From the NCBI GenBank assembly GCA_029964075.1, contig CM057146.1:14093501-14157500 (forward strand): a stretch of 64,000 nt of DNA. The letters run 5' to 3'. The notes beneath the pieces are model-generated. The model searched no databases. It worked only from the letters and a program-made list of their open reading frames with translations, and was not told the origin of the DNA. The position numbers were made by a program, and so were the translations under genes. This document shows positions 5,635 through 34,403 of this stretch, piece after piece; the first letter of the stretch is position 1; every line of letters starts with the position of its first letter. The DNA is from Patiria pectinifera (taxonomy: Eukaryota; Echinodermata; Asteroidea; Valvatida; Asterinidae).

Positions 5635-6011
5635 GGCCAAAAAAAAAAAGTCTCCGGTTTCTGGTATGCGCGCGCATCGCCGTAGCCATGCGCGTCGGCA
5701 AAATGAAAAAAGTTTTTTTTTCAATACAAGATGATGTTCCAAAACCGCCAAACTCACTGGTTTGACTGGAATTCTGCTGCTGCACAATTTTAACGTGTTT
5801 TTAGATGGGGTTATGATCGACAATAAGATTTATGTGGCCTCTCTGGACTCCCATATATTTGCACTAAGTTTAGTTGGGCACCATTTGCAGTCATCAGCCG
5901 ACATTTGAAGCCAAAAAAAAAAAAACCAGGTAAAAAAAAAAAAAGCCGCGTCGTCGCACCACTTTTGGGGCAAGCTCCATACCAGAAACCGGAGACTTTT
6001 TTTTTTTGGCC
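5635..6011. mobile_element. Non-autonomous DNA transposon (MITE), Harbinger-like by its TAA duplication
   Basis: The element has terminal inverted repeats of about 34 bp: GGCC, a run of A, then GTCTCCGGTTTCTGGTATG at the left, and the exact reverse at the right. It is flanked by the 3 bp duplication TAA (5632-5634 and 6012-6014). Other units show the empty site GTAGTAAGGTTCATG, for example at 12587-12600 and 21599-21613, so the boundaries are certain. A 3 bp TWA duplication is characteristic of PIF/Harbinger. At 377 bp with no open frame it depends on a transposase elsewhere. A-runs and T-runs also occur internally (5700-5725 and 5915-5945). Confidence 0.85.
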
Positions 6012-6039
6012 TAAGGTTCATGTTTTTGATCCAGCTTGT

Positions 6040-6600
6040 CTTTGAATTCAGCTCATTCGGATTTGAGATCGTTTGTACATGAGCACGTCTGGACCTTAGC
6101 TAGTATAAACTTCAGGTCATTCGGACTTCAACTCGGACTTGAGCTCGTTCGTACCTGATCGAGCACGCCTAGACTTTAGCTATAAACTCGAGGTCATTCG
6201 GACTTGAGCTCGTTTGTACCTGATCGAGCACGCCTAGACTTTAGCTAGTAAACTCGAGGTCATTCGGACTTCAACTCGGACTTGAGCTCGTTTGTAACTG
6301 ATCGAGCACGCCTAGACTTTAGCTAGTAAACTCGAGGTCATTCGGACTTCAACTCGGACTTGAGCTCGTCTGTACCTGAGCACGCCTTGAATTTAGCTAG
6401 TATAAACTCGAGGTCATTCGGACTTCAATTCGGACTTGAGCTCGTTTTAATTGAGCACGCCTTGACTTTAGCTAGTATAAACTCGAGGTCATTCGGACTT
6501 CAACTCGGACTTGAGCTCGTCTGTACCTGAGGACGCCTTGACTTTAGCTCGTTAAACTCGAGGTCATTCGGACTCATCCAGACCTGAGGTCTTTTGGAGT
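6040..6600. repeat. Minisatellite, 73-78 bp period, about 7 copies (unit 1)
   Basis: Tandem copies of a 73-78 bp monomer containing GAGGTCATTCGGACTTCAAC, TTGAGCTCGTTTGTACCTGA and GCACGCCTAGACTTTAGCTA. This is the longest allele of this block in the window. Copies differ by point changes and by a small deletion in the second copy near 6190. Confidence 0.9.
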
Positions 6601-7028
6601 TCGTTTGTCGGGACAACTGAGATTTTGAGGAAGGCTTGGTCATATCGTCCCCATTTTGAAAGGTAGGCCTTCGTTTTAACATTTCATATTTAGTCACAGC
6701 TAAGTGCAGGTTATCACGTTGACAATAACGAATATTAAACTTTTATCCAGCATAACAACGAAAAACTGCAACCCTCATAAAAACTGGATTTTATTTAGAT
6801 TTTTGTCTTGCCCCCAAACAAATCCTCCCTGTCGGTATACTGTCATTATCGAGTCCGATGGGGAACGGGGCCATTCTACCCAGCGAGAACTGAATTATTG
6901 TCGGGCACCAAATAACTTGACCCTTGTAAAGTGATTGTTAGAAAACTAAACGTGGTCAGCGGTCTCAAACGATGTTTCATTCGATGTCACATCGGTTGGA
7001 TAGGCCCAGCCCGAAAGTTTGACCTTGG

Positions 7029-7075
7029 TATATATTGACGCCTAATAGATGAACCGACCAGCCCTCAGAACAAAG
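7029..7075 (+). promoter_or_regulatory. TATA-like box with downstream CTCAG (unit 1)
   Basis: GGTATATATTGACG is followed about 35 bp later by CCCTCAGAACAAAGC. The same arrangement is present at 13387, 22331, 37440 and 61812. In units 6 and 8 the TATA is replaced by CGGTAGTCACCC (44519 and 55879). Spacing from TATA to a possible initiator is right for an RNA polymerase II core promoter, but no reading frame follows. Confidence 0.3.
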
Positions 7076-7889
7076 CTAATGTGAAGCATTTCTTGTTGTG
7101 ATACATTATATGTTCATATTTCAACGCAAATTTTTGTCTTTGTTTCCTCAACCAAATTCCTCAACCCTCATTCACAATTGATATAATATACATAATACTC
7201 CAACGACTGCGTTCCGGTGTTTCTTGATCTAGCGATCATGGGGTAGCTTCCTGGTCCCGTGACTAGTAGTGCTTATGACGGTCCGTAGGTCCGCAAATGC
7301 GGGGCAATTTCTTAAAATTTAACAAATGGTTTTTAAGTTTAAAAAGTCAATCTCTATTTTATGTGCCACTAAAGGGTGCCCTTTCCGGTGATATCGCCAT
7401 CATTGTTTTCTTGGTGTTTGGCATTTCTCACTAAACATTCAATTTCACAAATTACTTGTCTGTACTAAAATGCTCCCGTTTTCGAGTTAAATTCAATTTT
7501 CATTGCACTTCCAATAAAACCTGAAGTGAAGGTCAAGTGGTTTTGTGACCGGGAAGAAATGTTGCTAAAGGCACCGTCTACCACCTCACGAAAAACGATA
7601 ACGACACTAAAAGATAGAGTTAAGAGTATTTTTTCAAAGCCTGCCCTTAAATCGCTTGTAAGTTGATACCTGATGACGTCATGAGGACGTCACAAAATCT
7701 TTGGACCGATGCCCAAGTTCGTACCAGGCTTTATTATCACCACGTCAACCGTTTGGAAGAAATCGTGGTTTGTTTTGACTGGGGCTCATTTCTGTATTTT
7801 GAATTTACCTAACTTGGACCTTCCGGTCATACCAAAAAAAATGTTCAGGAGAAAACCCGCCGAATTATAGACATTTTGTGCTAAGACAT

Positions 7890-8334
7890 TCATAATAATG
7901 CACGCATGCGCATAAATGCACCTGGCGACAAAAAGTGAAAGCAGCCCACTTAAATGTACAGGGGTCAAAATTGTTTGTCATTTGCTTTCAATTTCTCCAG
8001 GATTTGTCCCTTTTTTATTGAGGAAAGGCTCTAAAATCGTCATAGGCATTGCTTTCTGGTCTCAGTGGGTTGGGGGGGAGGGAGGCACAAAATAAAATCC
8101 TTAAGAATTGCAAAAGATTCTAGCAGGGTTCCTTTCCGCACTGGTGCCAAAAATAAACATGCTTGGGGGATTCCTGGTTCAACTACAAACACTAGCGATC
8201 ATCTTTAAAAATGTCAGGTTTTGAAATACCATCGAGAGTCAAAGGTAGTGATTGACGAGAATGTTGCAACTTTCTGCCGCTGACCGATATAGTGCAGCGT
8301 GATTTTCGCGTGGCAGGCGCCCGGGCCTGCCACG
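7890..8334. repeat. Foldback 2, first copy in unit 1 (right arm truncated)
   Basis: The left arm starts with GCACGCATGCGCATAAATG and includes GGGTTCCTTTCCGCACTGGTGCC. The right arm begins at about 8290 (GCAGCGTGATTTTCGCGTGGCAGGCGCC-type) but stops at 8334, where an unrelated piece of the unit is joined. Confidence 0.7.
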
Positions 8335-8405
8335 AGGCGGCTTTTTCATCAATCAAAATTTTCAAACAACTGATAATAAATGCAGGTGTATTAGGTAACA
8401 ACATT
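8335..8405. repeat. Displaced fragment of the mid-unit block
   Basis: GGCGGCTTTTTCATCAATCA through GTATTAGGTAACAAC normally sits just before the minisatellite (for example 5463-5529 and 12417-12484). Here it is embedded in foldback 2, followed by a short ATTATTATT tract and a second foldback 2 left arm. It marks a rearrangement specific to unit 1. Confidence 0.8.
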
Positions 8406-9000
8406 ATTATTATTAGGTAACATTACAGGGGTCAAATTGTTGTCATCTGCTCTCAATTTCTCCAGGATTTGTCATTTTTTTAATTTAGAAAAGGCCTTAA
8501 AATCGTCATAGGCATAACTTTCTGGTCTCAGTTCTGGTCTCATTGGGTTTTTTTTGGAGGGGGGGCACGAAAAATAATCTTTAAAAATTGTTTGTGTCCC
8601 GTGCGCACAAGGGCGACTATCAGCAAGGTTCCTTTCCGCACCGGTGCGAAAAATAAACATGCTTGGAAGATTCCCGGTTCAACTACAAAACACTAGCGAT
8701 CATCTTTTCAAATGTCAGGTTTTGAAATACCATCGAGAGCCAAAGGTAGTGATTGACGAGAATGTTGCCGCTGACCGATATAGTGCAGCATGATTTTCGC
8801 GTGGCAGGCGCCCGGGGAAGTACACCCGATCCCTGGTCAACGTGACCGTCAGTGCACGGTGAAATCGATTTGTGCCGGCATATCCCTTTCCCCTCGTGCG
8901 CACGAGACAAAAGCAATTTTTAAAGTTTTTATTTTGTGCCCTCAAAAACCACTAAAGCCAGAAAATAAAGCATATGACGATTTAGGGATTTTTCATGTAA
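8406..9000. repeat. Foldback 2, second copy in unit 1, running into unit 2
   Basis: Left arm about 8410-8700 (GTTCCTTTCCGCACCGGTGCG) and right arm about 8780-9000, around a spacer with GATTGACGAGAATGTTG. The right arm merges with the start of the next unit, showing that the unit-start sequence is itself part of the arm family. Confidence 0.7.
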
Positions 9001-16516: not shown

Positions 16517-16945
16517 ATTTATATTCATCATTTATAAGTAACAGGTCTATGACATCCCAACTGGAGCCGACCACACATTCTTAGACGGCTCAATAACTTT
16601 GAAAAACTGTTCGGGCGTGGCAGCCCCCCCCCCCCCCCAAAAAAAAATTGTATCTCAGCTACATGCGTGTTCAGCAGAAACCACAAAAATCCCTGCCACT
16701 AAAACTAAATCGTGTTTGTCATTTTAAACAGAAATTACGTTCAAAAAAAATATATCACCTTTTGACACGTGACCAGCGGTTTCATTGGATGATTCATTAA
16801 AACCAACAATTGTGTTGTCAGTCAGTCAGGAGCACAATAACGTTTTCCAATAACGACTTAATACCAAGGGGTAAATAAGCATTATTACTCAAAGTAGATG
16901 TACAGGGTTTATCATCCGCACCCCAAACTAGAATGAGTTAGTATA

Positions 16946-18581
16946 CATACTTTTGCATACTTTTCCTCTGTGTTTAACCCTGATGGTCTGGTTCCCAATG
17001 ACCCATCTCCTTCTTCACTACCATTACCTGGTCTTTCAGAACTGTATGTGCCTGTAGGTAAGATTAATTCTATTATACGTAATCTACCCACCAACAAATC
17101 TCCTGGCCCTGATGGCATTATTCCTGGTATATTAAAGAATAAAGAAGATTTCTTGCCAAGTATCCATCCCTCTGTGCTTGCTGTTCAACACCTCTCTAAG
17201 CTCAGGAAAATTACCCGATGCTTGGCGATGTGCAAACATTACCCCCGTTTTCAAAAAGGGTGATAAATCCATTCTGTCGAACTACAGACCTGTTGCACTG
17301 ACATCCGTTCTGTGTAAAATTCTAGAGAGTGTTGTTGCGGCTGCCATAACAGATCACGTGGGTATGTTTGGGTTGTTGAACAGCAATCAACACGGCTTTA
17401 CAAAACGCCGAAGCTGTGTTACCCAACTCCTCAATGTTATTCATCAATGGGCACTGACTCTTGATGTTCCACGCCCTCCCCGAATTGACGCCGTCTTCCT
17501 AGACATGTCAAAGGCATTTGACAGGATGCCACACCATATCCTGCTTAGTAAACTTTCATCGGTTTACAACATCCAGGGTGTGGTCTGGCGTTGGGTCAGA
17601 TCATTTTTGACTGGCAGGAAGCAACGTGTTCTTTTCCAGGGTAGTGTTTCCTCATGGGTCAGTGTTTCATCTGGTGTTCCCCAAGGTAGCGTTCTTGGAC
17701 CCACCTTATTCAACCTGTTTGTCAATAGCATTCCCGACTGTGTCTCCTCTAGCTGTGTTCTGTTCGCTGACGATGCTTTGCTCTTCCGAGTCATCCGGTC
17801 GGTTGAGGATGAGTTCCAGCTGCAGAACGACTTAAATAATATGCAAGACTGGTGTTTAAATCATGACATGCTCTTCAATACAACCAAAACTAAGGTTATG
17901 CACGTCACCAGAAGCAAAAATATCCATCCTCCAGTTTACACACTTGGTGATGCTGCCCTGTCTACAGTTACCTCTATTCAATATTTAGGTGTCACTATTA
18001 GCTCCAATCTTCAATGGAATTCCCATATTGACTCACTTGTCTCACGTGCAAATCGCCTCCTGGGTTTCATCCGTACTATTGCTGGCGGAGCATCAACTCA
18101 AGCCATATTCTGCCTTTACAAATCTCTGATCCTGCCTATCCTGGAATATGGCATTCCAGCTTGGGGTACTCACACTATCTCTCAACAGCAAAAGATTGAG
18201 CGCGTACAACGCACTGCCACCCGCATTGCTTTGAAACAAAGACGCGGTGAAATGCCATATGAGGATAGGTTGGGTCAGTTAAACTGGTCTTCTCTTTCAT
18301 CTAGAAGAGATTACTTACTATGCTCTTTTGCTTTTAAATGTTTATCTGGTGTTTGCAGGTGCGAGTCGATCAACGACAATGTTCTCATAAATGCACGCCA
18401 TCCAGAATCCCTTACCTTCCGTCATCTGCCTTCTCGTACACAAGCTTTATATCATTCTCCTACTCGTTATCTTCCAAGACTTTGGAACCAATTTCCACCC
18501 CATATTAGGGATTCTGCAGTACTGGACACTCTACCTGTTTTCCTGAGGAATCTTCGGCAATTACTTTTCTCAGACAACTGA
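16946..18581 (+). pseudogene. Reverse transcriptase domain of the LINE, one frameshift
   Basis: Non-LTR reverse transcriptase, which would prime cDNA synthesis on nicked target DNA. The first frame (from 16946) gives AYFSSVFNPDG and the RT motif NKSPGPDGI. A one-base shift near 17175-17180 moves the rest into the frame read from 17178, open for 467 codons. Motifs there: PVFKKGDKS and NYRPVALTSVL (residues 24-45), DMSKAFDRMPH, SGVPQGSVLGP, the catalytic FADDALLF, and YLGVTISSNLQW. The C-terminal connection region ends with LWNQFPPHIRDSAV before a TGA stop. The endonuclease domain and ORF1 are missing by truncation. Apart from the single shift the frame is intact, so the copy is fairly young. 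Confidence 0.9.
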
Positions 18582-18716
18582 TTTCATTATCCTCATTAGT
18601 GTTTTCATATACTTGTTGCATTTAATTGGTGGGGACTTTCACATGACTTTCACATGACTTTCACATGATTTGGGCTTCGTTGCATTAGTCTTCTTGCTTG
18701 CGTGTAATTTGTAACA

Positions 18717-19531
18717 TATGGTGTTCTATATCTGCCATCTCGCGTGGCGGATCTCGCGTGGCGGATCTCGCGTCGCGCCTCGCGGATCTCGCGTCGCGCC
18801 TCGCGGATCTCGCGTGGCGCCTCGCGGATCTCGCGTCGCGCCTCGCGGATCTCGCCTCGCGGATCTCGCCTCGCGGATCTCGCCTCGCGGATCTCGCCTC
18901 GCGGATCTCGCCTCGCGGATCTCGCCTCGCGGATCTCGCCTCGCGGATCTCGCCTCGCGGATCTCGCCTCGCGGATCTCGCCTCGCGGATCTCGCCTCGC
19001 GTTTTTTTTTCTTCTGGGTGTTGCGCATGCGCATATATATAAGAGAAATGATGGCTATATCCCATTCAGAGACGCCTCTCCTATAGATTGGCTTGTGAAT
19101 AAAAATGTGCGTAAGAAATGCGCATGCGCAAATATATAAGAGAAATGATGGCTATAACCCATTCAGAGACGCCTCTCCTATAGATTGGCTTGTGAATAAA
19201 AATGTGCGTAAGAAATGCGCATGCGCAACACCCAGAAGAAAAAAAACGCGAGGCGAGATCCGCGAGGCGAGATCGGGGAGGCGAGATCCGCGAGGCGAGA
19301 TCCGCGAGGCGAGATCCGCGAGGCGAGATCCGCGAGGCGAGATCCGCGAGGCGAGATCCGCGAGGCGAGATCCGCGAGGCGAGATCCGCGAGGCGAGATC
19401 CGCGAGGCGCCACGCGAGATCCGCGAGGCGCCACGCGAGATCCGCGAGGCGCGACGCGAGATCCGCGAGGCGCGACGCGAGATCCGCCACGCGAGATCCG
19501 CCACGCGAGATGGCAGATATAGAACACCATA
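18717..19531. mobile_element. Foldback transposon with 14 bp repeat arms, nested in the LINE 3' UTR
   Basis: The termini TATGGTGTTCTATATCTGCC and its exact reverse complement are flanked by a 6 bp target duplication GTAACA (18711-18716 and 19532-19537). Each arm (about 300 bp) starts with this unique end, then CTCGCGTGGCGGAT-type repeats, then about 11-12 tandem copies of a 14 bp unit (CTCGCCTCGCGGAT), then TTTTTTTCTTCTGGGTGTTG and TGCGCATGCGCA. The arms are inverted and almost identical. The centre holds a 97 bp direct duplication. No transposase is encoded. The plan (tandem-repeat outer domain plus inner domain) resembles sea urchin TU foldback elements, though this is an analogy in layout only. 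Confidence 0.88.
19034..19227 (+). repeat. 97 bp direct tandem duplication at the foldback centre
   Basis: Two head-to-tail copies (about 19034-19130 and 19131-19227) of a sequence starting AAGAGAAATGATGGCTATA and ending AATGCGCATGCGCAA, differing at about two positions. It breaks the symmetry of the inverted element. It matches the outer ends of the large palindrome at 31477-34159. Confidence 0.85.
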
Positions 19532-19877
19532 GTAACAGGGGTCAGTTTTCTTGTTGCTGTTTAATATTTTCATTATTTTCTTGTACCTTGTTTTGTTCTT
19601 GTCTGCGTTTGTCTGCTTATTATGTGCGGGGTTACATACCTGTGGGTAATAGTAATTGAATTTACTTTTGTGACCCCTGACCCACACATCGTCTTTTATA
19701 TATCGTCTTCGGATGTTTTCATTCATATTATGTGTTGTTTTTGTGGCCCCTACACTTATACAGTGTCGTCTTTTGTGTTTATTTTGTTTTATTTTGTATT
19801 TCGTAGCTTTCATACATTTTTGTTTAGTTTTTGTTTTTCATACCGTGTTTGTTCATTGTGCATTGTTTTGGTCGAAT

Positions 19878-19901
19878 AAATAATAATAATAATAATAATA
19901 A
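19878..19901 (+). repeat. (TAA)n 3' tail of the LINE
   Basis: About eight TAA units following GTCGAATAAA, directly abutting the target duplication. It marks the LINE 3' end. Confidence 0.9.
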
Positions 19902-21639
19902 TAGTACTTGAAAGTTATGAACTTAGGCATTGTCAGTAAGGTTGGATCACGGCAATTGCGTCCACGCCGTCATATATGAATAAGAATAATTTATTTCAAA
20001 ACAAAGACTAAAATTCTTGATTCACGTTGTTCCGATTCATTGGTAAAATGAGTTGTCAAGTGTCGTCGTGTTGACGTCATCATATGTTAAGCGACACCAC
20101 CCTAAAGATCAATTTCTCAAAGTCGTATATCTACAGAACCACAAGCCGCATTGGCTTACAACTTTGTTGTTGAATAGTCGGGCACGAGTTCAAACTGAAC
20201 AGTGGAGAGATGTCATGATGACGTCTTCAAGAGATTTTAAACGGATTACCAATCTTTTTAAAATTGTTATGAGTATAAACAAATAAAGAAAAATACTTTG
20301 GAGGCCCGAATCAGACAAAGGAAACATATTTTGTGACCGAAAAGAAGATCCAACTGAAAAAAGCAAAAAAGAACCGTACTTTGTCAACCCGGGATTCGAA
20401 CTCCGGACCATTCGTGTGCCAAGCGAGAGTCTTAACCACAAGCCAACGCAGCTTGCACAACCGCGCACACTGTAAAATAACGTACGTAATGATACACATA
20501 CACTTGCATGTTAACATAAACATGTACATTTTATCATTAGTCAAGCCGCCCAAACATTTTCTACCTCAGATACCTGGGCGATATACATTAACTGTCATAG
20601 ATCCCTGTGATAATTACAAGTATGTCCGCTTAAAACCCTCCCCCCCAATAATTAGGACAAATACTCCCGACTCTCCAAGTACGGACGTATTTCATGCACA
20701 CATCAAAGTAAAGTTATTTTAAAAACCTTTCATAATCTGTTCAGTTCTTAGACGTTTATTGGTCACTTTCGGGAAAAATTATCCATCCAGAAATGATCAC
20801 CTCTAAAAGTGGTCCAAAATCCCATCGCCATTCGTTGCGCCAAGTAGCCCAGTTAAAGGGTCATATTCTTTCCAAATTTCACAACGGTAGGCCTACGACA
20901 TCACACAACGCACGGCAGCCAACCTTCTGTTTCTTAAACCCTCCAATTGTTGGCCTTCGAAATGCTCAAATAACAGAAAATTTAATTGTTGTGAGTAAAA
21001 ATAAAACCAGCAAATCATCCGGAGCCACGAACCACACGAAGACAAACAATTTTTGTGACAGGAACGAAGATCCGACAGAGAAATTAATAGATAAAAGGAA
21101 CACATAATCGTAACTGCAAACCCGACATTCGAACTTGGGACCTTTCGCATCACCTTCCTGTTCAATGCACCTTGAACTGAAGTATATAGACTCCAAGAAC
21201 GATATTGTAAGGCATGTTGATATATTTTGGCGTGTGGTTTATATTTTGAGTTATTACACAGAACATTTAAGTGCAGGTGTAAAATCTTGCCGGTTGCGTC
21301 TCGGATGAAAAAAATTGAAATAAAATGAATCAATAGAAATTTGAGTGGCCATGTCATCTCAGCCCCTCCTAAGGGATCGCTGCCCACGTAGATAAAACAA
21401 ATTGAGCGGAAATTTGGAAGTAAATTGATTGAGGCGGCTTTTTCATCAATCACAATTTTCAAACAAATGATAATAAATGCAGGTGTATTAGGTAACAACG
21501 ATTTTGCAGATCACGCCATAGATAATGTTACACATGCAGCGCACACTGTACAAGAGTGATAATTGAGAACGCACGAAGCGTTCAGCAGCGACGCCGTTAC
21601 GTAGTAAGGTTCATGTTTTTGACCAAGCTTGTCTTTGAA

Positions 21640-30544: not shown

Positions 30545-31478
30545 ATGGTTTTGAGGCAAGAAGCGAAATCGATCCATTACAAATGTACAGCGGTACAAAC
30601 AAACAGAAAAGCCCCTGAAATCGTCATGGGCATTACTTTCTGGCCAAAGTGGACTTTTCGGGGGTCAAAAAAATCACAACTTAAAAAAAATGCTTTCTTC
30701 CCGAGCGACTATGAGGGCGAAGGGAATCAGCAGGGCTCCTTTCAGCACGAGTGAAAATCAGTAACTGTGCACTTCGCGGTACCATCCGTCAAAATAACGG
30801 GACGAATCGCGCTGCTGAATCGCGCCGGGCTGAACCACCGGCTGAATCACGGGCTGCGCAGACACAAACGATGTCGATGTCACCGTGAACGAAACGTCAC
30901 GTTGACCGGGCACTGGGCGTACAGGCCAGCTGGGCGCAACGCCAAAAACCACGCTGCGCTATATCGGTCATTATTATGAAAAATAAAGCAATAAAGAAAA
31001 TAAAGCCCATACAATTAAAAAATAATTTCAAAAATATTTTCCAAAGTTAATTGTCAAATTGCATCTTTGTTGACGACACTGTTGCAACTTTATCCGCTGA
31101 CCAATATATATAGCGCAGCGTGTTTTTTTCGTGTGGCTCACGCCGGGCCTGTACGCCCAGTGCCCGGTTAATGTGACTGTCCATGCACGGTGACATCGTT
31201 TGTGGCCCGCAGCCCGTAATTCAGCCCGCGGTTCAGCCCGGCGCGATTCATCACCGCGTTCAGTCCGAAATTTGGAGATGGAACACCGAAGTGCACAGTT
31301 ACTCATTGCCACTCGTGCGGAAAGGAGCCCTGCTGATTGCCTTCGCCCTCGTGTGCTCGGGACGAAGGCAATTATTTAAGTCTTCATTTTGTGCATCAAG
31401 AAAGAAGCGAGAAGTCCTTGGAGAAATTGGCGATAAAAACACACCCGAATGTTTGTACCCCTGTACATTTTTGATGGA
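30545..31478. repeat. Foldback 1 of unit 5 (left arm and interrupted right arm)
   Basis: Left arm 30545-30975; right arm 31080-31478, where it is cut by the palindrome inside GTACATTTTTGATGGA. The remaining outer part of the arm follows at 34404-34452, after the duplicated stretch. Confidence 0.75.
31235..31478 (+). repeat. 244 bp host duplication, left copy
   Basis: From AGCCCGGCGCGATTCATC to ACATTTTTGATGGA. Matches 34160-34403 with one visible difference (TTGCCAC here, TTGTCAC there). It is ordinary foldback 1 right-arm sequence. Confidence 0.92.
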
Positions 31479-31717
31479 TGAGAGAAATGATGGCTCTATC
31501 CCATTCAGAGACGCCTCTCTTATAGATTGGCTTGAGAATAAAAAAATGTGCGTAAGAACAACACATTGAATTATTCGATGGTGTGATATTGTGTGGTTTA
31601 TTTCTTCAATTAAGACACATGAAGGGGTCTTAAAAATTGGGTAGAAATAGGAGGGAGAAATCAATTGAAGTTTTGACCGTAGCCAAGTTTACCCAGGCAG
31701 TGGGGTGGGTTAGGTTT

Positions 31718-31797
31718 TACCTGAGGGCATTAGCGGGAATGCATTTTCGTCCCTTCGGGGACTCATCAGCCGCTAGATTCAAAAGAATCCGTAGGTA
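31718..31797 (-). ncRNA. Hammerhead ribozyme motif (left arm, minus strand)
   Basis: Mirror copy of the motif at 33839-33918; the 45 nt core is 31731-31775. Read on the minus strand it has the same TAGCGG, CTGATGA, GTCCC-CGAA-GGGAC, GAAA and CCGCTA segments. It would act only in transcripts running leftward out of the palindrome. Confidence 0.85.
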
Positions 31798-32652
31798 TGG
31801 GTCAGTGAGTTAAAAGGAACTCACTTGGAGAAAGATATTCCGTCAAAATTTATCTGATATGTGACACTTGCAAGTTCATTTGGATGAGATTGGTTCATCC
31901 AAGAGTGAAATCAGGATGTCAAAGGTATTGTCGTTCTCAGATAAGTGGAAGACGGGTTGGTATAGCCGAGTTGGGAACAAAGTTGGATCTTTTACTTCAA
32001 GCTATTTTCTCGGTAGGGGAGAGTGATAGCTTTGAGAGGTTGGTTATAAATTGTTCATTTGGTGGGCTACTTCTTTCTGTTGGTTAGCTTGGGACAGCCG
32101 ATGGGGATTTGAACATGAATGGGCAAATCTTTTGGCTTTAAATCTTAGTATTCCCTTTGTGGAAGGAACTAATGTTTTCCTAGTCATGGTTATTATGATA
32201 ATAATAATGATAATTATTATTTATAATAAAATGGTAAACACAATGAACAAATCTCTTTTTGGTAGAGGTGAAGGCTCTGAAAAGAGCCGTTTGTGTTTGA
32301 TGGAGACCGGAGGTGGTTTAGCGGTGCCGCTTGGCTGGTTGCTTGGTCGACTGCTCACGTAGGAAATGGTTGAGCAGTTAACGAGCAGTGGCGATGTTTC
32401 CCTTGGTGAGGAGTTGGCTCTTGATTTGGTCGAGAGCTTCGAGGTGCTGTTCTTGGAAGAAGCGTTGATTTTCCTCTTTCCAGTCCTGAACACTGAACCC
32501 AGAGCTTCCACTGAGATACGCACCACTGAACACCGACCAGCCATTCATTCATACACCAGCAAAGGGACACTATCTTTTGTGGTCTAGCCCACGTCCGCTT
32601 CACAGGCAAGTATACTAAGCTAAGGGCGCTCTCTTGGTCATCCGACAACATC

Positions 32653-33258
32653 ATGTCAACCCAAGATTCAAACCCATCCAGTTCCCCGTTCTCATGTGCG
32701 CAGGTAATACCCGAAACTGACTTCTCTGATTCAGACGTGTCTGAAAACAGTGAATCTCTCTTTCATACTCTGGCCCAGGAAGCGCAAACTTCCATCAGTC
32801 AGATCTCATTAAGAGACCCAAAAAGTAAGGACAAACCGGTACCCAGAACAAAAGACCAACAGCAAACAAATAGGAATCATCGTCTAGAAAATAAGGACTA
32901 CAGATTTGTCCGAAAACTAGCGGTGCCCCTCCAACAACTTGTTTCGCATCCAGTCGCCCTGAACAAGCAGATCACCCTACTGGAGAAAGCTGTCAAAACC
33001 AAGAACCCACCGAAATACCTCTACACCTAAGTCTCACTACCCACTCCACCCGAAGGTCATCATCTCCAAACAAACTTGAAGACCGTGTGGAAACAAGTGG
33101 CCACAACCGCTGCCCTTGGGTTCACCATATTGAACCCACAGCAGTTACAGGACTGGAAAGAGGAAAATCAACGCTTCTTCCAAGAACAGCACCTCGAAGC
33201 TCTCGACCAAATCAAGAGCCAACTCCTCACCAAGGGAAACATCGCCACTGCTCGTTAA
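32653..33258 (+). pseudogene. Degraded ORF of about 200 codons in the palindrome centre, family unknown
   Basis: Starts at an ATG after GACAACATC and runs 125 codons to an in-frame TAA (33028-33030), then continues in the same frame for another 75 codons to TAA at 33256-33258. The N-terminus is acidic and Ser-rich (SSPFSCAQ, DFSDSDVSENSES); the middle is basic (DPKSKDKPVPRTKDQ); then LAVPLQQLVSHPVALNKQ, LLEKAVKTKNPPKYLYT, and after the stop VSLPTPPEGHHLQTNLKTVW and WKEENQRFFQEQHLEALDQ. It looks like the start of a retroelement ORF1/Gag-like protein, but I recognise no domain. The last 37 codons lie in the right arm. An overlapping frame continues with RPSNQPSGTAKPPPVSIKHK to about 33415, suggesting a frameshift near 33255. 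Confidence 0.55.
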
Positions 33259-33838
33259 CTGCTCAACCATTTCCTACGTGAGCAGTCGACCAAGCAACCA
33301 GCCAAGCGGCACCGCTAAACCACCTCCGGTCTCCATCAAACACAAACGGCTCTTTTCAGAGCCTTCACCTCTACCAAAAAGAGATTTGTTCATTGTGTTT
33401 ACCATTTTATTATAAATAATAATTATCATTATTATTATCATAATAACCGTGACTAGGAAAACATTAGTTCCTTCCACAAAGGGAATACTAAGATTTAAAG
33501 CCAAAAGATTTGCCCATTCATGTTCAAATCCCCATCGGCTGTCCCAAGCTAACCAACAGAAAGAAGTAGCCCACCAAATGAACAATTTATAACCAACCTC
33601 TCAAAGCTATCACTCTCCCCTACCGAGAAAATAGCTTGAAGTAAAAGATCCAACTTTGTTCCCAACTCGGCTATACCAACCCGTCTTCCACTTATCTGAG
33701 AACGACAATACCTTTGACATCCTGATTTCACTCTTGGATGAACCAATCTCATCCAAATGAACTTGCAAGTGTCACATATCAGATAAATTTTGACGGAATA
33801 TCTTTCTCCAAGTGAGTTCCTTTTAACTCACTGACCCA

Positions 33839-33918
33839 TACCTACGGATTCTTTTGAATCTAGCGGCTGATGAGTCCCCGAAGGGACGAAAATGCATTCC
33901 CGCTAATGCCCTCAGGTA
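33839..33918 (+). ncRNA. Hammerhead ribozyme, type I with very short stem III (right arm)
   Basis: Self-cleaving RNA motif. Core in order: stem I strand TAGCGG (33861-33866); CTGATGA (33867-33873); stem II GTCCC/GGGAC (33874-33878 and 33883-33887) with loop CGAA; GAAA (33888-33891); stem III within the self-complementary AATGCATT (33891-33898); cleavage nucleotide C 33899 preceded by T; stem I return strand CCGCTA (33900-33905). All conserved core positions are present. An outer stem TACCT/AGGTA (33839-33843 and 33914-33918) extends stem I around an internal loop that holds a GATTC-TTTT-GAATC hairpin. Such type I hammerheads with minimal stem III are known from retrozymes and Penelope-like elements and often act as dimers. 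It lies about 600 nt downstream of the ORF, in the same sense. Confidence 0.88.
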
Positions 33919-34159
33919 AAACCTAACCCACCCCACTGCCTGGGTAAACTTGGCTACGGTCAAAACTTCAATTGATTTCTCCCTCCTATTTCTACCCAAT
34001 TTTTAAGACCCCTTCATGTGTCTTAATTGAAGAAATAAACCACACAATATCACACCATCGAATAATTCAATGTGTTGTTCTTACGCACATTTTTTTATTC
34101 TCAAGCCAATCTATAAGAGAGGCGTCTCTGAATGGGATAGAGCCATCATTTCTCTCATC

Positions 34160-34403
34160 AGCCCGGCGCGATTCATCACCGCGTTCAGTCCGAAATTTGG
34201 AGATGGAACACCGAAGTGCACAGTTACTCATTGTCACTCGTGCGGAAAGGAGCCCTGCTGATTGCCTTCGCCCTCGTGTGCTCGGGACGAAGGCAATTAT
34301 TTAAGTCTTCATTTTGTGCATCAAGAAAGAAGCGAGAAGTCCTTGGAGAAATTGGCGATAAAAACACACCCGAATGTTTGTACCCCTGTACATTTTTGAT
34401 GGA
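34160..34403 (+). repeat. 244 bp host duplication, right copy
   Basis: Second copy of 31235-31478, immediately outside the palindrome, after which the unit continues normally with CCTTTTTCGCTTCTTGCC. Far longer than the 2-20 bp duplications of ordinary transposons. Confidence 0.92.

Follow-up and report, generated by a model that had tools for sequence, protein, structure and literature searches.

The window, by which we mean the whole 64-kb stretch of DNA analyzed here, consists of eukaryotic repeats: long satellite-like monomers, themselves containing minisatellites of 74-78 bp, form an array. Within the array lies a 2.68-kb head-to-head inverted insertion that carries a type I hammerhead ribozyme motif, and the satellite monomers provide the empty sites against which insertions can be dated. 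The same insertion harbors a broken open reading frame (ORF1), the remnant of a second (ORF2), and a stem-loop of the histone mRNA type between them (Table 1). A separate LINE insertion (16943-19902; RVT_1 ORF at 17136-18581) with an (AAT)n tail also interrupts the array; the few named relatives of a LINE in the window point to an animal host. A second palindrome (18710-19537; arms of 325 nt, 98%) is nested in a LINE tail. It contains two tandem 97-bp units in which about 80 bp match the 3' terminus of the hammerhead element (91-93%), with TGCGCATGCGCA and a TATA-like run upstream.

Table 1. Coordinates of the features of the palindromic insertion, in window positions.
Feature	Position	Strand	Remarks
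Whole insertion, head-to-head inverted	31479..34157	.	both ends read TGAGAGAAATG inward
Left inverted arm, shorter copy of element 3' part	31477..32488	-	1012 nt, 1 mismatch to right arm
Right inverted arm	33148..34159	+	1012 nt
Left target-site duplication copy	31233..31478	+	1 mismatch in 246 relative to right copy
Right target-site duplication copy	34158..34403	+	abuts insertion end
ORF1	32653..33318	+	in-frame stops 33028, 33256; own stop codon 33316-33318
Histone mRNA 3' stem-loop with purine stretch	33343..33389 (core 33348-33363)	+	RF00032 29.6 bits, cut-off 34
Histone stem-loop, mirror copy	32247..32293	-	in left arm
ORF2 remnant	33449..33760	+	N-terminal stretch from about 33449, C-terminal tail to near 33760; reverse transcriptase core missing at about 33696
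Type I hammerhead ribozyme motif, right arm	33861..33905	+	letters, Rfam, motif scan, fold; predicted cleavage after C33899
Hammerhead stem I	33861-33866 with 33900-33905	+	TAGCGG with CCGCTA
Hammerhead CTGATGA	33867-33873	+	
Hammerhead stem II	33874-33878 with 33883-33887	+	GTCCC with GGGAC, loop CGAA
Hammerhead GAA, AATGCATT, predicted cleavage C	33888-33890, 33891-33898, 33899	+	
Hammerhead mirror copy, left arm	31731..31775	-	predicted cleavage C at 31737, - strand
3'-terminal 81-bp module	34078..34158	+	mirror 31478-31558; 91-93% relatives at 19039-19117, 19136-19214

The palindrome and its hammerhead motif

The two arms are separated by 659 nt, and their sole difference falls in the first codon of the ORF2 remnant. 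TC follows as the next two bases in 27 of 33 other copies of the family that end at 34157; the insertion is therefore probably two bases longer on each side (31477-34159), with a flanking duplication of 242-246 bp. All nine paralogous monomers in the window hold the duplicated stretch as a single copy in the same orientation, and when the insertion is removed in silico the joined flanks continue unbroken through nine of nine. The two flanking copies differ at 1 of 246 positions, while the best other monomer reaches about 97%. Together, the unbroken empty sites and the mutual closeness of the flanks identify a target-site duplication made at insertion, and the insertion is recent.

The hammerhead letters reported in the preliminary description at 33839-33918 are exact, including an outer TACCT/AGGTA extension, and the mirror copy placed at 31718-31797 is their reverse complement, a consequence of the inverted arms. 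The motif presents CUGANGA, stem II, GAAA, a stem III with the A15.1-U16.1 pair, H17, and a stem I open to the flanks, as expected of type I. That such a set is unlikely by chance is borne out by a relaxed motif scanner, which hit 2 of 1500 first-order Markov surrogates of 64 kb at least once and, in the window, found the two mirror copies and no others. Likewise, the exact 25-nt core with at most three mismatches occurs only at the two mirror places in the window and in none of 100 shuffles. Comparison with the Rfam type I model (RF00163) gave a divided result: 33861-33905 aligned over all 45 model positions, but the score of 25.7 bits lies below the gathering score of 34 (E-value 0.00028 in the 301 nt searched, 0.059 over the whole window). 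At the gathering threshold, Rfam returned no matches in the whole window, and the hammerhead cut-off was reached by none of 15 relatives searched.

The fold of the 80-nt hammerhead stretch is not exceptional (z -1.94; 9 of 200 shuffles equally good), and the minimum-energy fold of a lone hammerhead 45-mer upsets the catalytic core. Two co-folded 45-mers, in contrast, form a double hammerhead at -36.1 kcal/mol, versus -31.0 for two misfolded monomers (-15.5 each), with eight intermolecular pairs in stem III. This agrees with passages of PMC7761336 in which minimal Penelope hammerheads may self-cleave as dimers; the same passages describe minimal variants from Penelope-like elements (PLEs) without helix III or loop contacts, and call the role of hammerheads in PLEs still a mystery. 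One minimal Penelope-type hammerhead required its protein (PMC11167929). On this modeling, we consider it somewhat probable that the hammerhead would cleave as an RNA dimer through its self-complementary AAUGCAUU stem III.

Conservation across the family was counted in 32 aligned rows, the window plus 31 of 42 aligned hammerhead relatives; the 11 left out were two rows of locus L014 near 9135 and 9715, which show relatedness only in their right half, and nine additional copies from loci that already contribute a row. An intact catalytic core is seen in 27 of the 32, and core, A15.1-U16.1 pair and position 17 are kept together in 22; a scanner that demands a 5 bp stem I was passed by 24 of 42 copies. 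Stem cells are paired at 92.1%, a value that is the same with columns shuffled, because the stems hardly vary, and that falls to 29-39% when the stems are slid. In 22 distinct rows, compensatory changes were found at 0 pairs.

Copies and coding capacity of the family

A genome search yielded 40 scored hammerhead copies from 67 candidates, the window's two included, at 90-100% identity. We fetched 27 loci holding the other 38 copies and submitted 15 of them to Rfam. All 27 align to the window unit, and of the 50 element 3' ends read, 44 fall at 34155-34157 of the window, 8 alignments that stop before 34140 having been set aside. The 81-bp module at this end was considered as a host promoter or small RNA gene and rejected, since it is the 3' end of the family. 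Head-to-head layout with outward 3' ends is present in 16 of 27 loci, which are not fully independent because three pairs have common flanks (L012/L013, L026/L027 and L030/L031). Direct copies also occur in L010, L012 and L014, and arm length varies among copies. The window form without reverse transcriptase (RT) is contiguous in L010 (97%) and L017 (95%) and thus represents a non-autonomous subfamily rather than a one-off.

Three of these loci have features of their own. In L014 (1385-2591), three tandem units (370, 370 and 461 bp) that all retain an intact hammerhead lie beside RT-bearing copies of the family. The L019 copy is flanked on both sides (1791-2147 and 7244-8209) by a different RT at 47-50% identity, and apparently inserted into a distinct but related element. 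A hammerhead copy in L024 adjoins an 861-aa ORF (5938-8520) with NACHT and leucine-rich repeat matches.

The ORF1 frame is weak from the window alone: its length was equalled with zero, one or two stops by 74, 35 and 58 of 2000 surrogates, respectively. In the relatives, the frame is open throughout in L035 and over most of its length in L019, and comparison of the window with L035, L019 and L015 gives dN of 0.19-0.20 against dS of 0.67-0.78 (dN/dS about 0.25-0.30). The low dN relative to dS indicates a real gene that has been under selection. ORF1 has no recognized domain (sub-threshold matches only in Pfam and PHROGs, none in PDB), and a protein search with the 166 residues up to the first in-frame stop found no relatives at E 0.01. 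Exact patterns gave no match in viral contigs or GTDB genome contigs; protein-guided scanning of viral contigs picked up 15 and 5 stretches with a matching word, none of them coding for a relative.

ORF2 is complete only outside the window copy. In L015 and L019, about 1.7 kb of RT-coding sequence splits the window parts at about 33696. One Pfam scan found RVT_1 matches in six of ten ORFs from relatives (E 4.4e-7 to 5.6e-13), with more in a further scan, and none in the frames scanned from the window copy. The RT ORF ends 108 nt upstream of the hammerhead core in L013 and L019. No GIY-YIG model was among the Pfam hits for the ORFs scanned in the window and its relatives; a profile search of the RT against solved structures returned nothing, and its best NCBIfam matches, far under their cut-offs, were group II and Drt3a RTs. 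A DIRS-type element had been considered, and was dropped once the RT ORF was found and its motifs read as Penelope-like. We take the motif order to be that of Penelope-like RTs, and by this order rather than by phylogeny the relatives' RT would fall in the Penelope clade. We therefore rate PLE membership as likely.

A full-length element runs from ORF1 through the histone-type stem-loop, ORF2 (reverse transcriptase) and the hammerhead to a fixed 3' end. Overall, the hammerhead very likely belongs to a PLE, of which it would be the 3'-terminal ribozyme, with catalysis predicted from its sequence. The window element, in turn, is in all likelihood an RT-deleted, 5'-truncated copy of an endonuclease-less, two-ORF PLE, a reading we hold with good confidence. 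The preliminary description had left the choice between retrozyme and Penelope-like element open for its short-stem-III, type I hammerhead; the RT ORF upstream in relatives and the head-to-head layout favor the latter.

A histone-type stem-loop between the ORFs

The stem-loop core starts 29 nt past the ORF1 stop codon and about 85 nt before the first ORF2 codon. Although the window copy scores below the RF00032 cut-off, seven of the 15 loci searched exceed it, at 36.5-39.2 bits (L012, L015, L017, L019, L030, L032 and L035). Nine of the 15 hold the stem-loop region, L010 and L025 below the cut-off, and it is unaligned in the other six. Downstream, a purine stretch such as AAAAGAGA is found in the window and most copies. 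It is absent from L025, L026 and L027, short head-to-head copies whose stem-loop is joined directly to sequence located 3' of the hammerhead, which accounts for the loss.

Canonical histone stem-loops lie a short distance from the stop codon and at a typical spacing from the purine stretch, to which the role of U7 is tied. The element resembles the histone mRNA 3' stem-loop of RF00032 in core, flanks, downstream purine stretch and short stop-codon distance, and departs from it in position, after a retroelement ORF1 and before an RT ORF.

The structure could be a chance product, or a by-product of coding sequence, with no role. The sub-threshold score in the window and the three copies without purines are in line with this, as are the changes in the 16-nt core, which is one base off in 4 of 13 other aligned copies, lost in one and identical in the remaining 8, and the ORF1 frame of L015, which has no stop before the stem-loop and continues through it. 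Against it, ORF1 stops directly upstream in the window, L019 and L035, and the L012 frame ends there too; the purine stretch keeps a histone-like spacing; and close to half of the loci searched surpass the cut-off. Moreover, the core is unchanged between the window and L012, L015 and L019, despite ORF1 dS of 0.67 (L015) and 0.78 (L019), and differs from L035 by one change at dS 0.73. By a rough estimate, the neutral chance of an unchanged core is below 1e-4 per comparison, the comparisons being non-independent. High synonymous divergence beside an unchanged core makes neutrality unlikely, and we consider a stem-loop without a role unlikely as well.

Use of the stem-loop for the 3' end of an ORF1 mRNA is, then, a serious if tentative proposal, to which we give slightly less than even weight. 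ORF1 would be made from a non-polyadenylated, histone-type mRNA, and ORF2 would be present on read-through RNA only. A search of open-licence papers with a few phrasings found none on a histone stem-loop signal in any retroelement or transposon. The hammerhead and the layout are already known for PLEs; the histone-type signal between the ORFs is, within the scope of that search, new.

Affinities and proposed route of insertion

A type I hammerhead could also mark a metazoan retrozyme, a small non-autonomous element with tandem hammerheads that releases circular RNA. The hammerhead is indeed minimal type I, and the three tandem units of L014, with intact hammerheads, have about the size of 150-450 bp that passages of PMC7229834 give for metazoan repeats with such hammerheads. 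The window insertion, however, pairs its hammerhead with a mirror copy and has no direct tandem of units of that size, which speaks against a typical retrozyme. Its coding content also argues otherwise: there is a disrupted ORF1, which in relatives has been under selection, and an ORF2 remnant, and relatives encode RT. Relative to metazoan non-LTR retrozymes, the family therefore shares the hammerhead type and, at L014 alone, tandem units of about 373 bp, and differs in its coding relatives, inverted layout and long unit. We regard a retrozyme as very unlikely.

Assembly or library preparation might instead have created the palindrome around a genuine element that bears the hammerhead, given near-identical arms and a locus seen in the assembly alone. 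Such an origin is highly improbable: a single target duplication abuts both ends exactly, the usual 3' end of the family terminates both arms, the nine paralogous monomers all present the empty site, and the same head-to-head layout recurs at 16 of 27 other loci. Finally, a DNA transposon or MITE that has terminal inverted repeats of kilobase length and bears the hammerhead by happenstance is scarcely credible, for although the 1012-bp arms are near-perfect and a target duplication is present, 242-246 bp far exceeds the 2-11 bp of transposase products, copies vary in arm length, direct tandems exist, RT-encoding relatives share the hammerhead and the 3' end, and no transposase model was among the Pfam hits to 15 reading frames scanned inside the insertion.

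Since no GIY-YIG was found, the closest comparison is with endonuclease (EN)-deficient, two-ORF PLEs, for which passages of PMC6431247 describe the hammerhead as the characteristic 3'-terminal fold. Athena and Terminons, as portrayed in parts of PMC6431247 and PMC3846280, resemble the present family in having two ORFs, an RT without EN, a 3'-terminal hammerhead and tandem copies. Unlike rotifer EN-deficient PLEs, the 27 loci feature no telomere-like run (TTAGGG- or TTAGG-type, at least 18 nt). Further differences are a hammerhead about 250 nt before the end, the head-to-head layout, and the histone stem-loop that lies between ORF1 and ORF2.

Canonical Penelope/Poseidon elements (RT plus GIY-YIG; e.g., PAc of Anolis) likewise carry a minimal type I hammerhead in the terminal repeat and, in passages of PMC3846280, inverted pLTRs placed head to head. 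We also count as a likeness, inferred for the present family, that the Penelope-like protein cuts and extends both strands (PMC11167929). The same passages of PMC3846280 give these elements a target duplication of 8-10 bp, in contrast to 242-246 bp here. In addition, the present family has no GIY-YIG that we found, and its ORF1 is separate.

Rotifer R9 is a LINE with its own endonuclease. Its target duplication of 126 bp, termed exceptionally long in the title of a reference cited in the consulted part of PMC6895275, is the longest comparable one met in those portions of the literature on long duplications that we covered. R9 shares this trait with the window insertion, at about half the length, and differs in being rDNA-specific by the cited title.

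For the window insertion, we propose that a copy devoid of the RT core and the 5' end was mobilized by RT acting in trans. Opposite strands would be nicked at two places about 245 bp apart, each nick offering a 3' end, and both ends would prime reverse transcription from a common 3' end of the element RNA. One cDNA would extend for about 1.67 kb and its partner for about 1.01 kb; head-to-head joining and fill-in would then leave the palindrome and the long duplication. Two-strand priming would account for the identical, outward 3' ends, the unequal copy lengths and the duplication, and a protein acting on both strands, as noted above for Penelope, would be consistent with it. For head-to-head copies, passages of PMC3846280 instead favor self-priming on an antisense template, which would account for the palindrome and not for the long duplication. 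No long target duplication was found at the 16 other head-to-head loci, which leaves the two-nick route with a single insertion behind it; three of the 16 show exact matches of 5-6 bp, indistinguishable from chance. The 242-246 bp duplication is thus a single case so far, and the other loci may be older or rearranged. We give an even chance to an insertion in which distant nicks, one on each strand, both primed from a single RNA end.

Taken jointly, these features suggest, tentatively and with somewhat less than even confidence, an animal PLE that uses the replication-dependent histone mRNA machinery of its host. The stem-loop and a U7-type downstream element between ORF1 and ORF2 would yield a non-polyadenylated ORF1 mRNA limited to S phase, RT would be rationed to read-through RNA, and the downstream hammerhead would trim that RNA. 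EN-independent priming on both strands at widely spaced nicks would then produce palindromic copies.

The family combines many copies, partners in the same genome that bear RT, and an insertion beside nine empty sites; with these, the priming route can be put to the test. Should the stem-loop be in use, the ORF1 of a retroelement would be coupled via the histone pathway to the cell cycle, and the element would have a new means of setting the ratio of ORF1 protein to RT.
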